From a virus: a stretch of 34,227 nucleotides of DNA. Positions within the stretch are counted from its first letter, which is position 1. The number at the start of each line of letters is the position of its first letter. A program made the position numbers and the translations under genes. Shown here in pieces: positions 14,182 to 33,942 of this stretch. The DNA lies in the IMG/VR virus record IMGVR_UViG_3300027759_000251, positions 1 to 34,227 of that record; one strand, written 5' to 3'. The notes under the pieces are model-generated. The model saw only the letters and a list, made by a program, of their open reading frames with translations. It searched no databases and had not been told where the DNA came from.

Positions 14182-14799
14182 ATGGGTGTACATAAAAAGT
14201 TAATGGAAGCAAGGATTGCCTTGCAAGCGGCTCCACTTAAAAAGTCAGGCCACAACAAGTTTGCAGGATATCAATACTTTGAACTTGGAGACTTTCTGCC
14301 AACAATCAATCAGATCTTCTACAAGGTTGGATTGTGCGGTGTAGTGTCATTTGACAAGGATCTGGCTACTCTGTGTATCACAGATACAGATGATGGCTCT
14401 CAGATTGTTCTGACAAGCCCTATGGCAGATGCAAATCTCAAAGGCTGCCATCCTATCCAGAATCTTGGTGCAGTAGAAACATACACTAGACGCTATCTCT
14501 GGGTGTCTGCAATGGAAATTGTTGAGCATGATGCGCTTGACTCTTCTCCACCAGTAAAGGAAGAGAAGCAAACCCCAATCATTACACCAACACAAGGTGC
14601 AATGGATAGCATTCCAGAAGATGAACAGAATTATCTCAGAGAGTTAGCAATGGAATTGATTGCTATCTGCGAGAATGAAGAACCTAAGACAGCTTGGGTA
14701 AAGTTGGAAAAAGAGAACTTAGATAGCGAACAAAAAGTCGCTCTATGGACTTTGCTTCCTAGTAAAGTAAGAAGTGCATTAAAAAATGCGAAAGGTTAA
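14182..14799 (+). CDS. erf: ERF-family single-strand annealing recombinase
   Basis: 205 residues, the usual length. [20 protein letters not shown] (7-26), [14 protein letters not shown], the central [20 protein letters not shown] and [14 protein letters not shown] define the ERF family. The [10 protein letters not shown] block is the strongest signature. ERF anneals complementary single strands, supporting recombination or circularisation of phage DNA. It is followed after one base by an SSB-like gene. The C-terminal part, after about residue 120, is a linker plus a small helical domain with no known function. RusA on the other strand would act on the products. Confidence 0.92.
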
Positions 14800-27872: not shown

Positions 27873-29453
27873 TTATACAATACCCACGATACGGATTTGA
27901 CCTGCACCACCTGTACCGCCTACACCAGCTGAGTATCCAGTATCAACAGAAGCTCCACCACCTCCACCACCGCCTGGGAATCCACCTGCACCGCCATTTC
28001 CACCATTGGCAGCGGCTTTAGCAGAACCACCTCCACCTCCAGTACCCATACCAGTTACTGAATTTGTTGTACCTGCAGTACCATTTCCACCAGCAGTACC
28101 ACCAGCACCACCGCCACCAGTTGTATAAGAGTTTGATGTACCACCAGCACCACCATAAGCAGTGGTATTGCCACCATCCATACCTGCACCTGCTCCTCCT
28201 CCAGCAGGGCCATATAACGATCCACCGCCATCTTCACCATTTAAGTATGCTCTTCCACCACCACCACCACCATAAATTCCAGATCCACCAGATCCATTAC
28301 CACCACCAAAACTAATATTTGATCCACCAGCAGTTGTCAATGTTCTTGGTGTTCCACCTAAACCACTGCTACTATCAGGTCCAACATTGTTAGAGCCATT
28401 ACCACCAACACTTAATAATCCACCGCCACCACCGCCTCCACCAAATTGAGCATAAGTAGTAGAACCTCCTGCTCCTGCTCCACCGCCATAAGCTATAACA
28501 TTATTAAATGATGAATTTCCACCAGCAGCACCTGCAGTTCCACCTGTGCCTACAGTAGCAGTTACAGAAGAACCTGCAGTTGGTGAATCAACAGTAGCAA
28601 TAACTCTTGCTCCACCAGCACCAGCTCCTGGCCCATATCTATAACCACCACTAGAGTTAACTGCTCCAGTGCCACCTCCACCGCCACCGCCAACAGCATC
28701 AATGGTTAACTTTTGATAACCAGGTGGAATCGTAATAGAGCCAGTAGAAGTAACAGTTACGTTAAATGTATTGATAACAACTGACTTAAATGATGTTCCA
28801 TTACACAGAACTAAACGTACCTCTTTTGGATACATAACAAATGAACTAAGTCCATCAATAGTTTCTGAACTATTAGGATCTAAAGTGACGTTACCAGTAC
28901 CAGAGTTACCAATGTAAACCCACCATCCAGCACCTAATGTTGTAGCAGAAGTAAATGTCTGAGTAAAAGTTCCACTGGTTACATCAATGTAGTAACCATT
29001 ATCAGCAACGGCTAAAACAGTATTGGATGTACGTGTAGATGTTGGAATACTAAAATTACCACCAATAGGTGATGCTGAAAAATTAGTTCCATCAGACTTA
29101 AGAAAGTATCCTGCAGCACCTGCAGATGTAAGACCCGTACCACCATTTGCAATAGGCAAAGTTCCTGTTACACCTGTAGTCAATGGCAGACCAGTAAGGT
29201 TGGTTGCCACACCAGATGTAGGTGTTCCTAGTAGTGGAGTCACCAATGTAGGAGATGTATTTAGAACAACAGATCCTGTGCCTGTTTTAGTTCCTACACC
29301 AGTACCGCCTTTGGTTACTTTAAGTAAAGGACCAGTATCAAACAAGTTATCAATAGTGTCTAAGTCTGTATTGATCTTAGTACCCCATGTATCGGTAGAT
29401 GCGCCTACCTCTGGTTTTGTAAGACCTAAGTTTGTGGTTGTTGTATCAGCCAT
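27873..29453 (-). CDS. Tail fibre with glycine-rich C-terminal domain
   Basis: 526 residues. The N-terminus [20 protein letters not shown] and the repeated [26 protein letters not shown] with GTG are standard phage tail-fibre sequence. Residues about 140-230 are beta-rich. From about 235 to the end the chain is nearly pure Gly/Ala/Ser/Asn repeats ([23 protein letters not shown]), the same type as in the four downstream paralogs. By analogy with the polyglycine-II adhesin tip of phage S16 gp38, it could form the receptor-binding tip. GAGG precedes the ATG. Fibre call is strong; the receptor is unknown. Confidence 0.85.
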
Positions 29454-30084: not shown

Positions 30085-31002
30085 TTAGAACGTAATTGAG
30101 CCAGAAGCTGTGAATTTGTATATTCTAAACCCACCTGACGTAGAAATGGTAGGTGAACCTGTTGTGCTTGTTGCGGCTATGAATGTATCTGGATAGCGGA
30201 GGATTACGATGCCGCTACCGCCAGTACCACCTGAATATTTTGGAGAATATGATGTGTAATTAGCACCACCACCGCCACCGCCACCAGTATTTGTAGAGCC
30301 AGCAGTAGCCGCATTATTTGCAGATGCCGCTACATAGCCACCATTACCACCGCCACCAACACCTCCAGCACCTGAAGTTCCTGCGTTTGAGTTATCTCCA
30401 GCACCGCCACCTCCACCGCCAGAATATGTAGTCACAGTTCCAGAAATAGCAGAAGCAATACCAGCACCACCTTTGCCGCCAATAGTGGCAACAGAAATTA
30501 AACCAATAGTGCCAGCACCGCCACCACCACCTCCAGCGTTTGCGTTTCCAATTGCACCACCAGAATTTCCTTGGCCAGAAATGCCAGAAGCACCATTAAC
30601 ACCAGAACCTGATTGAGATGCACCTCCACCAGAACCACCAGTTTTAGGATTAGCACCAGTACGCCATGCACCACCTCCACCACCAGCAGTAGCAGTAATA
30701 TTATTAAAAACAGAATTAGAACCGCTTGTACCACCAGCTGTTGAATCAGTAGCAGCAGCACCACCAGCACCCCCTGCACCTACAGTCACAGTTAGGCTTG
30801 AACCAATAGTTATTCCAGAAAACCCCGCAAGCAAACCGCCTGCGCCGCCGCCACCGGCTTGCCCGTTAGCATCACTACCGCCACCGCCACCACCAGCAAC
30901 AACCAAATACTCCACATTCTGCGGAGGCAGTCCCGTCCAATTGTTGTCTTTAATGGCTTGGCTTGCCTGAGACAGCGTATAAATGCCTGAATACTGAGGC
31001 AT
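30085..31002 (-). CDS. Glycine-rich putative adhesin, copy A (subtype I)
   Basis: 305 residues. N-terminal anchor YSGIYTLSQASQAIKDNNW (4-22) and the family signature VEYLVVAGGGGGG (30-42). The Gly/Ala/Ser body holds LTVTVGAGGAGG, SVFNNITATAGGGGG and GGAGIASAISGTVTTY. The C-terminal beta cap is GSGIVILRYPDTF and FRIYKFTASGSITF. Cap and IASAI block match copy C, defining subtype I. The plan (variable N-terminal hook, glycine core, conserved cap) suggests a trimeric or polyglycine-II surface protein. No signal peptide. Confidence 0.75.
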   Translation of the reverse strand: MPQYSGIYTLSQASQAIKDNNWTGLPPQNVEYLVVAGGGGGGSDANGQAGGGGAGGLLAGFSGITIGSSLTVTVGAGGAGGAAATDSTAGGTSGSNSVFNNITATAGGGGGAWRTGANPKTGGSGGGASQSGSGVNGASGISGQGNSGGAIGNANAGGGGGGAGTIGLISVATIGGKGGAGIASAISGTVTTYSGGGGGGAGDNSNAGTSGAGGVGGGGNGGYVAASANNAATAGSTNTGGGGGGGANYTSYSPKYSGGTGGSGIVILRYPDTFIAATSTTGSPTISTSGGFRIYKFTASGSITF

Positions 31003-31003
31003 C

Positions 31004-31351
31004 TTATGCTCCTTGAGTTACTTCAACCCAAGCAGTTGTGGCTTCATCCCATTTGTACATACCCGTTGTAGGCATAGGCGTTGGGGCTTCCCAAAGGTAT
31101 GTCTCAGCGTTCTTTGTCCATGATGCAAATGGTTGTGGAGGGGCAAAGCCTGTGCCATCCCATGTGTAACCAATGCCTGCATAGTTTTTATGCAATGCAG
31201 TGCCACCCGTAGCATGAACATTACCATGCGTGTTGTAAGATGTTTGAACCCACTCGGACGGATCACCCCAATGACCCGTTGCCAAAGTCTCGGCATCAAT
31301 AACAATAACTTGGTCAACAATGCCGTTTGTGATGTGTGCGTAATGTGCCAT
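31004..31351 (-). CDS. Small tail-region protein between glycine-rich genes
   Basis: 115 residues, beta-rich with many Trp/His: MAHYAHITNGIVDQVIVIDA, GNVHATGGTALHKNYAGIGY and WDEATTAWVEVTQGA. The opening MAHYAHITNGIVDQVIVID is common in small phage tail-region proteins whose function is unknown. It interrupts the pair of glycine-rich genes A and B. It might be a chaperone or accessory subunit of the adhesins; only position supports this. Confidence 0.7.
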   Translation of the reverse strand: MAHYAHITNGIVDQVIVIDAETLATGHWGDPSEWVQTSYNTHGNVHATGGTALHKNYAGIGYTWDGTGFAPPQPFASWTKNAETYLWEAPTPMPTTGMYKWDEATTAWVEVTQGA

Positions 31352-31360
31352 GATTTTCCT

Positions 31361-32188
31361 TTAAAAAGTTACAGTTCCAGATGATGTCCAAGTGTAGATT
31401 TGGTAGCCATCAGCGTAGTTTATTTGGGGTGATCCAGTTGTTGCAGTTGGTGCTGATTGTGTTGCAGGGTAACGAATAATTACGATGCCAGAGCCACCAT
31501 TTCCACCATTTGCGTTTGATCCGCCTGTCCATCCACCGCCACCTCCACCGCCTCCACTATTTGATGTTGCCGAGGTTGATGAAACTACTGTAGTAGGATT
31601 ATTATTTACACCACCAAAACCACTTCCAGAAATTCCTATGCCACGCATACTTGATGTTGCGCCACCGCTAATGCTTAAATATCCACCACCGCCTCCACCA
31701 GCATATTGAACTGGAGTTCCAGTTATTGTTGAAACAATACCTGTACCGCCATCGCCAGCTTTACCTGATGCTCCAGCATTCCCAATAGAACCTGAGCCAC
31801 CACCTCCACCGCCAGCATAAAGTGTGCCTGCTTGGTAAAAAACGCCACCAGCATTTCCGTTCCCAGATGCACCACCATTAGCCACATTGGTACTGCCTCC
31901 AACGCCAACTGATGAAGTTATAGAACTAAAAACAGATGCTTGCCCATTGCTACCAGAAGAACCAATAGAAGTTGAACCAGCACCGCCAGCACCTACAGTC
32001 ACAGTTAATGCAGAACCTGTAGCAACGGCAAACGATGCAGCACTTGAAAGTCCACCCGCACCGCCACCGCCACCAACCTCATAGCCACCGCCACCCCCAC
32101 CAGCAACCACAAGGTATTCAACGGCAGTAGGTGCGCCACTCAAAGGGTTAAATGTTGCGCTAATAAAACCACCAAGATTTGCACTCAT
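31361..32188 (-). CDS. Glycine-rich putative adhesin, copy B (subtype II)
   Basis: 275 residues. N-terminus SANLGGFISATFNPLSGAPT, then VEYLVVAGGGGGG (23-35). The body contains VTVGAGGAGSTSI, SVFSSITSSV and GGTGIVSTITGTPVQYAGGG. The cap is GSGIVIIRYPATQSAPTATT and YQIYTWTSSGTVTF. The short GGFIS-type start, GIVSTITG block and GTVTF end match copy D, defining subtype II. The start overlaps the stop of copy C (ATGA). No catalytic motif is visible. Confidence 0.75.
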   Translation of the reverse strand: MSANLGGFISATFNPLSGAPTAVEYLVVAGGGGGGYEVGGGGGAGGLSSAASFAVATGSALTVTVGAGGAGSTSIGSSGSNGQASVFSSITSSVGVGGSTNVANGGASGNGNAGGVFYQAGTLYAGGGGGGSGSIGNAGASGKAGDGGTGIVSTITGTPVQYAGGGGGGYLSISGGATSSMRGIGISGSGFGGVNNNPTTVVSSTSATSNSGGGGGGGGWTGGSNANGGNGGSGIVIIRYPATQSAPTATTGSPQINYADGYQIYTWTSSGTVTF

Positions 32189-33057
32189 AGTGTGATACTT
32201 CCGCTAGATGTAAATGTGTAAATTGTGTAGCCGTTAGCAGTTGTCTTTGTGCCGTTTGAAACGCTTGCCGCATCAGCAAATGTGCTTGGGTAGCGGATGA
32301 TTACAATTCCAGATCCTCCAGTGCCGCCATTAAATGCCCCATTAGACCCACCACCACCTCCTCCTGTGTTGGCTGTACCATTTCCACCAGCACTACCAGC
32401 CGTTCCTGTGCCACCACCACCAACACCTCCAATACCTAGCACATTTCCACCACCTGCTCCTCCACCTCCACCACCCGCATAAGTTGTAATAGTTCCATTG
32501 ATAGCTGAAGCAATACCAGCACCTCCATTTCCAGCAGCCCCAGCTGTTAAGGCATTTAAACCAACAGTTCCTGCACCTGCTCCTCCTCCAGCACCATTTC
32601 CTCCTACGCCAGCTCCATATCCAATGCCACCCGTATTTCCTTGTCCTGATGTGGCAAAACCTCCAGTATTTGTTGATCCTATATAGCCAGAACCGCCACC
32701 ACCAGAGCCACCCGAACCACCAGTTATGTATGAACTACTACCACCGCCATAACCACCACCAAGTGCGGTAATAGAACCAAAAACAGAATTATTACCATTT
32801 GCAGATGGGTTTGAAGAACCTGCACCTCCACCACCAATAGTCACTGTAATGGATGAATCTGTAGTCACAAGATAAATTCCTGATAACAAGCCTCCAGCAC
32901 CTGCGCCACCACCATTACTACCTGATGTTCCTGCACCGCCACCGCCACCACCAGCGACAACTAGATATTCAACCCAAGCAGTTTTTTGCGTACCACTCCA
33001 AGCCTTCTGTCTGATTGCTTGGTTTTGTTGTCTGAGAGTAAAAAGACCCGTTGCCAT
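32185..33057 (-). CDS. Glycine-rich putative adhesin, copy C (subtype I)
   Basis: 290 residues. N-terminus LFTLRQQNQAIRQKAWSGTQ is like copy A, with the signature VEYLVVAGGGGGG. The body has ITVTIGGGGAGSS, SVFGSITALGGG and GGAGIASAINGTITTYAGGG. The cap is GSGIVIIRYPSTF and YTIYTFTSSGSITL. AAGGG precedes the ATG. It is coupled to copy B downstream. A likely surface protein of the tail or a fibre component; no receptor can be inferred. Confidence 0.75.
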   Translation of the reverse strand: MATGLFTLRQQNQAIRQKAWSGTQKTAWVEYLVVAGGGGGGAGTSGSNGGGAGAGGLLSGIYLVTTDSSITVTIGGGGAGSSNPSANGNNSVFGSITALGGGYGGGSSSYITGGSGGSGGGGSGYIGSTNTGGFATSGQGNTGGIGYGAGVGGNGAGGGAGAGTVGLNALTAGAAGNGGAGIASAINGTITTYAGGGGGGAGGGNVLGIGGVGGGGTGTAGSAGGNGTANTGGGGGGSNGAFNGGTGGSGIVIIRYPSTFADAASVSNGTKTTANGYTIYTFTSSGSITL

Positions 33058-33066
33058 TTTTATCCC

Positions 33067-33942
33067 TTAGAAAGTAATCGTGCCAGAGGCAACAAATCTG
33101 TACACACGCCAAAAGCCTGTGACATAAGTTTCTGGTGAGCCTGTTGTTGATGTAGCAGGGGCTAGGTAAGATGGGTAGCGGATGATAACTATGCCAGAGC
33201 CGCCAGCCGCACCATTAAATAAAACAGCAGGAGTTCCACCAGATGGATTACCACCAGCACCACCGCCACCGCCAGTATTTGCCAATCCAGTGCTATTTAA
33301 ACTTACTGGTGAAGTTTGACAACCATTGCCACCGCCAGCCGCACCAATACCAAAAGGCAAAGCCTGTGTGCCACCACCAGCACCTCCAGCATAAAATATT
33401 TGTGAACCCGTAATTGAACTAACCAATCCAGTTCCACCATTACCTGCTTTTACACTAGCTGTTGCGCCAATGCCAACTGACCCAGCACCGCCTCCACCGC
33501 CTCCTGTAAAAGGAGATGGCCCTTGTCCTGCACCACCAGCAAAGCCTTGACCGCTTGTGCCAGAACCTGCTGCGCCACCACCAGAACCATTTGCTGCCCC
33601 ACCTCCACCAGAACCGCCAGTACGCCCTGCGCCAGAACTAATGTCATAAGTGCCACCGCCACCACCGCCAGTTGCGGTAATTGAACTAAAAACAGAGTTA
33701 GAACCATCAGAACTAGCAACTTGTGATGTTGTTGCTGCGCCACCTGCACCTACAGTAATTGTGTATGAAGTGCCAATTACTACAGCAAGACCTGTAGCAG
33801 ATAAAACACCGCCACCGCCACCGCCACCACCAAGCCATCCACCGCCACCACCGCCAGCCACGACAAGGTACTCCACCGTTGTGACAGGGTAGTTAATGCC
33901 GTTAGTCCCAGCACTTAGAATTCCACCAACTCTTTTGGACAT
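33067..33942 (-). CDS. Glycine-rich putative adhesin, copy D (subtype II)
   Basis: 291 residues. N-terminus SKRVGGILSAGTNGINYPVT is like copy B, with the signature VEYLVVAGGGGGG. The body has YTITVGAGGAATTS, SVFSSITATGGG and GGTGLVSSITGSQIFYAGG. The cap is GSGIVIIRYPSYLAPATSTT and WRVYRFVASGTITF. AAGGA lies upstream of the ATG. First of the four copies in transcription order. One Cys (GCQTS) is unusual in an otherwise Cys-free family. Confidence 0.75.
   Translation of the reverse strand: MSKRVGGILSAGTNGINYPVTTVEYLVVAGGGGGGWLGGGGGGGGVLSATGLAVVIGTSYTITVGAGGAATTSQVASSDGSNSVFSSITATGGGGGGTYDISSGAGRTGGSGGGGAANGSGGGAAGSGTSGQGFAGGAGQGPSPFTGGGGGGAGSVGIGATASVKAGNGGTGLVSSITGSQIFYAGGAGGGTQALPFGIGAAGGGNGCQTSPVSLNSTGLANTGGGGGAGGNPSGGTPAVLFNGAAGGSGIVIIRYPSYLAPATSTTGSPETYVTGFWRVYRFVASGTITF

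Follow-up and report, generated by a model that had tools for sequence, protein, structure and literature searches.

Four tandem glycine-rich proteins encoded by a podovirus-like phage, here called D, C, B and A in order of transcription, are probably the tips by which a tail-fibre complex with several adhesins binds its receptors; short N-terminal sequences of two kinds, motif II and motif I, would dock them into it. To judge from sequence comparison, these motifs are two distinct short tags, which in other phages head proteins of unrelated fold, either singly or fused to one another, and loci with exactly two tags of each kind are much more frequent than in shuffled data.

A cassette of four glycine-rich genes

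The window analysed is a whole virus record of 34,227 bases, with genes for a portal, a scaffold, an SU10-type capsid protein, a terminase, a virion structural protein (phrog_3287) and an endolysin. On the minus strand, the end of a jelly-roll protein of the 124-residue type is followed by D, C, B, a gene for a 115-residue protein, A, genes for proteins of 61 and 144 residues, and a glycine-rich fibre of a second kind (Table 1). The end of C, with its stop, and the start codon of B overlap by 4 nt, and gene A has a GTG start in the related contigs L013, L014, L017 and L020. The first-pass annotation had described the four proteins with their motifs and coordinates, and their alternating order II-I-II-[115 aa]-I, all of which we could confirm. 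Common to D, C, B and A are VEYLVVAGGGGGG, an SVF..IT block and GSGIVI(I/L)RYP.

Table 1 Features of the glycine-rich cassette, in window positions.
Feature	Position	Strand	Evidence or remark
Jelly-roll protein, C-terminal 91 aa of ~124 aa	33952..34227	-	Open ORF; N-terminus and adaptor fibre fall outside the window
D, putative glycine-rich adhesin, 291 aa, motif II	33067..33942	-	PF21722 79.5 bits, N-terminal tree, motif HMM
Motif II of D, MSKRVGGILSAGTNGINYP	33886..33942	-	Motif HMM
C, putative glycine-rich adhesin, 290 aa, motif I	32185..33057	-	PF21722 73.7 bits, tree, motif HMM
Motif I of C, TGLFTLRQQNQAIRQKAWSG	32989..33051	-	Motif HMM
B, putative glycine-rich adhesin, 275 aa, motif II	31361..32188	-	PF21722 77.8 bits, tree, motif HMM
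Motif II of B, MSANLGGFISATFNPLSGA	32132..32188	-	Motif HMM
115-aa protein (phrog_7759)	31004..31351	-	One copy, between B and A
A, putative glycine-rich adhesin, 305 aa, motif I	30085..31002	-	PF21722 80.9 bits, AlphaFold pLDDT 89
Motif I of A, YSGIYTLSQASQAIKDNNWTG	30931..30993	-	Motif HMM; AlphaFold short helix at residues 10-18, low confidence
Hypervariable glycine core of A	30229..30885	-	Column profile of eight A orthologues; alignment

All four proteins match the Pfam family PF21722 (Gly_rich_2) with 73.7-80.9 bits, against a curated cut-off of 24.3. It was the only family returned by a Pfam search of D, C, B and A, which found neither T4 gp10-like nor similar N-terminal docking domains. 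The second, different glycine-rich fibre of the same genome (526 residues, window 27873-29453, minus strand) carries no II or I tag and scores 16.1 bits, below the cut-off, so the PF21722 match of the four is not a product of composition alone.

In a tree of the N-termini of 32 homologues from twelve contigs, A and C split from B and D with support of 100/99. The mean N-terminal identity over the 32 sequences is 36% for the pairing AC/BD and 11% for both AB/CD and AD/BC. The motif I class (A and C) reads G-[LIM]-[FYW]-T-L..Q..QAI....W, and the motif II class (B and D) reads GG-[FI]-[IL]-S-A..N. The two N-terminal subtypes that had been proposed from this sequence alone are thus real, and a tree placing A with B and C with D, which would speak against them, was looked for; neither grouping was found. 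For the C-termini, where the same division had been suggested, agreement is partial. The C-terminal tree recovers {A,C} weakly (83/81), but raw identities do not favour that pairing (43.7 for AC/BD vs 46.2 and 47.9 for the other two), and the GSIT and GT(V/I)T endings vary among relatives, the C protein of L134 ending in SGTITF, for example. Outside the shared glycines, the cores show a slight excess for AC/BD (25.0 vs 21.2 and 21.5%).

We see conserved ends around hypervariable cores, as first noted: for the same gene compared between phages, DNA identity is 59-68% in the cores and 72-98% (mostly 74-98%) in the ends. In eight orthologues of A, about nine variable segments of the core alternate with conserved glycine motifs. 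A diversity-generating retroelement was sought through RVT_1, which was not found in the 34-kb record, itself perhaps incomplete. The genome does encode an ERF-family single-strand annealing protein (window 14182-14799, plus strand), which could permit recombination via the short conserved ends.

Relatives were located via the 115-aa and 124-aa genes, as tblastn with D gave nothing in phage records, probably due to low-complexity masking of glycine-rich sequence. The close relatives L013 and L014 also have the D-C-B-115-A gene set, with different cores, while a single II-I unit is found in L017, L020 and L021 (B-116-A) and in L081 (one II gene and one I gene). In the close relatives L009, L012, L015 and L022, the cassette site is occupied by large fibres of another sort, one or two in each. 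The full D-C-B-115-A order appears again in otherwise different phages, such as L134, L136, L139 and L150, and the aquatic phage contigs that share the gene order measure 34-63 kb. In the trees all D sequences group together, as do all C and all B sequences, and in the C-terminal tree also all A sequences. As these four separate lineages keep the same order in divergent phages, any duplication must be ancient. On this evidence from gene order and sequence, the arrangement is an old and widespread cassette that has been kept together, not a recent local duplication.

The opposite reading, in which a two-gene unit was recently duplicated in tandem and cores were then shuffled between copies with altered specificity, is scarcely credible. 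Relatives with one unit do exist, and they uphold the II-then-I pair as a repeating unit; the encoded ERF-type protein and the conservation of the ends at the DNA level also suit a history of duplication and shuffling. However, the four positions represent lineages that separated long ago and run through divergent phages, and the 115-aa gene has no second copy, which together argue against a simple two-gene duplication in this phage. The longest exact DNA tracts shared between cores have a median of 17 nt whether the positions are the same or different, with a maximum of 32. Recombination of cores between copies, a further proposal of the first-pass annotation, was set aside on this absence of long shared tracts.

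Some cassettes elsewhere are longer. Gene A encodes 547-575 residues in L139, L140 and L138, and gene C about 500 in L136 and L139; these roughly doubled versions contain an additional domain or a second one of the glycine-rich kind, with tags and order unchanged. Homing-endonuclease-like genes are inserted in some D-C-B-115-A cassettes, for instance an HNH-like gene that separates B from the 115-aa gene (L150:7784-8446). Free-standing endonucleases are recurrent here and could drive the spread of the cassette. GIY-YIG homing-endonuclease-like genes also lie directly 5' of a fibre gene (L239:7747-8436, L147:7697-8437 and L262:2671-3303), and the first 7-8 codons of endonuclease and fibre are nearly alike (MSTKYTGG/MSTKYSGG, MSQTLLGG/MSASLLGG and MPNFSGV/MPNFSGV). 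These genes look as if they had been inserted inside the docking-tag codons, with duplication of the fibre start. Such a shared run of opening codons was not seen in two other endonuclease cases (L138 and L153).

Motif II and motif I tags behind the jelly-roll gene

Viral contigs were scanned with the 124-aa protein, and HMMs of motif II and motif I were applied at 6 bits. Behind the 124-aa gene there are regularly fibre genes headed by motif II, by motif I or by both fused. Among 2809 ORFs at this threshold, motif II starts within the first 60 residues in 162 and further in in 0; for motif I the corresponding numbers are 168 and 5. In other phages the tags head glycine-rich, RCC1, DUF7483, SPRY and FN3 proteins. 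The isolate Phage DSL-LC04 (OR003939) has both tags fused, on one glycine-rich and one lectin-like fibre, and it encodes the adaptor and the jelly roll as well.

Exactly two II and two I tags are found at 36 of 53 loci, a count over non-independent loci on metagenome contigs, made after removal of loci with identical proteins, irrespective of relatedness, and with HMMs refined on the very loci counted. The layouts of these 36 are II-I-(II+I) in 15, (II+I)-(II+I) in 13, II-I-II-I in 7 and II-II-I-I in 1. For loci selected only by the jelly-roll gene, the two-plus-two total holds at 30 of 38. If we consider loci with at least two tagged genes, it holds at 36 of 45 (shuffled mean 6.6, maximum 17), and among those from the scan only, at 30 of 33 (shuffled mean 6.3, maximum 15). 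Motif II immediately precedes motif I in 39 of 44 cases, compared to a shuffled mean of 18.2 and a maximum of 28. Other counts occur, with 1+1 at five loci, and L139 and L142 fall short of one II by HMM. Held-out genome contigs gave only six loci: L262 shows II, I and II+I (the first II by eye, with no HMM match), L258 shows II then I (the II with merely 4.1 bits), and the remainder are single fused proteins, truncated, or tagless.

The first-pass annotation had offered as an alternative that the two subtypes act together in a hetero-complex, and this gains support from the fusion of II and I in many phages and from the regular adjacency of the two. The main rival explanation is that each of the four adhesins docks at a site of its own, independently of the others, and that the two-plus-two total reflects inherited gene order and not II-I pairing. 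We consider this unlikely. The cassette may have come to its various phages by common descent, each of D, C, B and A is a lineage specific to its position, and 1+1 and other counts are seen, as independent docking would allow. Against this, fused II+I proteins stand at the same place, the two commonest layouts with such proteins accounting for 28 of the 53 loci, and the two-plus-two total stays the same whether the layout is split or fused and although the binding domains are unrelated.

The 124-aa protein, of which a complete homologue lies at L014:585-959, is predicted by AlphaFold to be a nine-strand jelly-roll sandwich (pLDDT 91). In structural comparison it comes closest to a trimeric phage cement protein (Z 9.6), with many unrelated jelly rolls close behind; since these are ordinary jelly rolls and none stands clearly apart, only the fold class is claimed. 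In 84 of 89 cases, the gene preceding the jelly-roll gene ends in a hydrophobic peptide (..AMAxxFG, e.g. GKAIAMAMVFGG), whatever its N-terminus. In relatives the cassette is placed after an adaptor fibre, and in the nearest of them the adaptor N-terminus MALVLADRV is found either with the tail peptide and the cassette, or with another fibre end and no cassette. This association suggests that the tail peptide and the jelly roll may form a socket.

In other phages the gene for the 115-aa protein (phrog_7759) is often a neighbour of glycine-rich fibre genes; its relatives in pelagiphages, roseophages and cyanophages lie next to such fibres and to 2OG-Fe(II) oxygenases, and the family has invariant W and P residues. 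We considered a known chaperone, but no relative was found among solved structures; its PHROG families are likewise without assigned function.

Predicted fold and a likely adhesin role

AlphaFold modelled A as a single chain with a pLDDT of 89 and a pTM of 0.86. The domain is confident; the N-terminus of about 29 residues, helical only at residues 10-18, was modelled without a partner and its tag is of low confidence. VIA-align matched the model to the Bxb1 tail tip (9d93_Qa; Z 14.0, 178 residues, 3.4 Å) and to the Pam3 fibre (7ypx_A; Z 13.1, 194 residues, 3.8 Å). A distal domain of the Pam3 gp24 type is recognised with Z 13.1 and 12.6, compared to about 5.6 for the TG domains of ALK/LTK. The Pam3 fibre was also the best Foldseek match for A (probability 0.97, E 0.015) and the best match of a sequence profile against solved structures (E 0.008). 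The long trimeric helical bundle that forms the N-terminus of the Pam3 type is not present in the AlphaFold model of A. The phage protein gp38 was not among the matches listed for the 63 chains compared, which is not evidence against a shared fold.

The predicted fold, matching tail-tip fibres of Bxb1 and Pam3, supports the first suggestion that an adhesin is the likely role, while a glycine fold by itself is no proof of receptor binding. One could instead suppose that these are not tail-tip adhesins, but other glycine-rich proteins of the virion or surface, such as a capsid decoration, with variation arising from slippage at GGN codons and not from receptor selection. Glycine-rich codons are slippage-prone, and the capsid cement protein matched by the jelly-roll gene would suit a decoration. 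We nevertheless regard this as very improbable, because the genes adjoin adaptor fibres, close relatives replace the cassette by other large fibres, the fold matches two tail-tip fibres, and the identical kinds of tag are carried by RCC1, DUF7483 and SPRY proteins.

A proposed docking mechanism and its relation to known systems

As receptor-binding tips, D, C, B and A would each comprise three parts: an N-terminal docking tag of ~20-30 residues, of type II or I; a TNF-like/glycine-rich domain whose rigid glycine motifs bear hypervariable loops; and a conserved C-terminal strand block. The tags would plug the adhesins into an acceptor, which may be the jelly-roll protein, the C-terminal peptide of the adaptor, or both. 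A II protein and the adjoining I protein would jointly occupy the place of one fused II+I fibre, and the complex at the tail tip would have room for two full II+I docking units. As both units are split in this phage, four adhesins, and thus four loop sets, could be displayed instead of two. The loops would bind the host receptor, and because the tags are constant, the variable binding domain could be replaced with the complex intact. This mechanism is built on genomic association and predicted folds, from which we infer both docking and receptor binding.

Several parts of this scheme are known already: the glycine-rich fold and the hypervariable tips, and also branched complexes of several adhesins and host-recognition modules common to different phages. 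The two-tag split or fused arrangement and its count appear to be new. Neither was found in the literature searched, which covered RCC1/LamG fibres, DUF7483, PF21722 and docking tags, with few subscription journals.

The closest counterpart is gp24 of Pam3 (PDB 7ypx/7yfw; PMC9608196); among solved structures it heads the sequence matches and ranks in the first two by structure. It likewise has a TNF-like and glycine-rich distal domain, with a conserved stem and a variable tip, and the glycine-rich fibre tip has been proposed as the receptor-binding part (PMC9608196). However, Pam3 has one fibre gene and docks by its helical bundle, whereas here there are four paralogues with 20-30 residue tags of two kinds. 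The Bxb1 protein (PDB 9d93 chain Qa) shares the glycine-rich fold across 178 residues (Z 14.0), but in a siphovirus tail tip. In gp38 of T2, S16 and PP01, as here, hypervariable segments lie between glycine-rich motifs and the ends are constant, and the loops of the glycine sandwich contact OmpC (PMC12892980); in those phages a single gp38 sits on gp37 of the long tail fibre. The branched TSP1-4 complex of Ackermannviridae (PMC11414711, PMC7506556) also has four receptor-binding proteins per phage, whose N-terminal parts assemble the complex and whose C-terminal parts vary; assembly through constant N-termini would be consistent with the tag counts seen here. Those proteins are tailspikes with larger N-terminal domains, in contrast to the short II and I tags, split or fused, that we describe. 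Alteromonas phages A5, V22 and P24 (PMC10579305) similarly have one host-recognition module in common while being otherwise unrelated, although the proteins differ and comprise a trimeric fibre and a chaperone.

The chances appear about even that the tags constitute a shared two-part docking code in aquatic tailed phages of several genome sizes. Under such a code, the adaptor tail peptide and the jelly roll would accept two II and two I tags, however these are spread over two, three or four proteins; glycine-rich, RCC1 propeller, DUF7483/SPRY and FN3 folds, unrelated to one another, could plug in; and splitting a fused fibre would double the number of distinct adhesins per tail. From the usual two-plus-two count follows a specific prediction about the structure of the acceptor. 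Since tail-tip proteins share little sequence, the host range of uncultured aquatic phages is difficult to deduce. If the tags mark every plug-in receptor-binding protein, they would offer a sequence handle by which to find and count these proteins and to recognise exchanged domains, whatever their fold.
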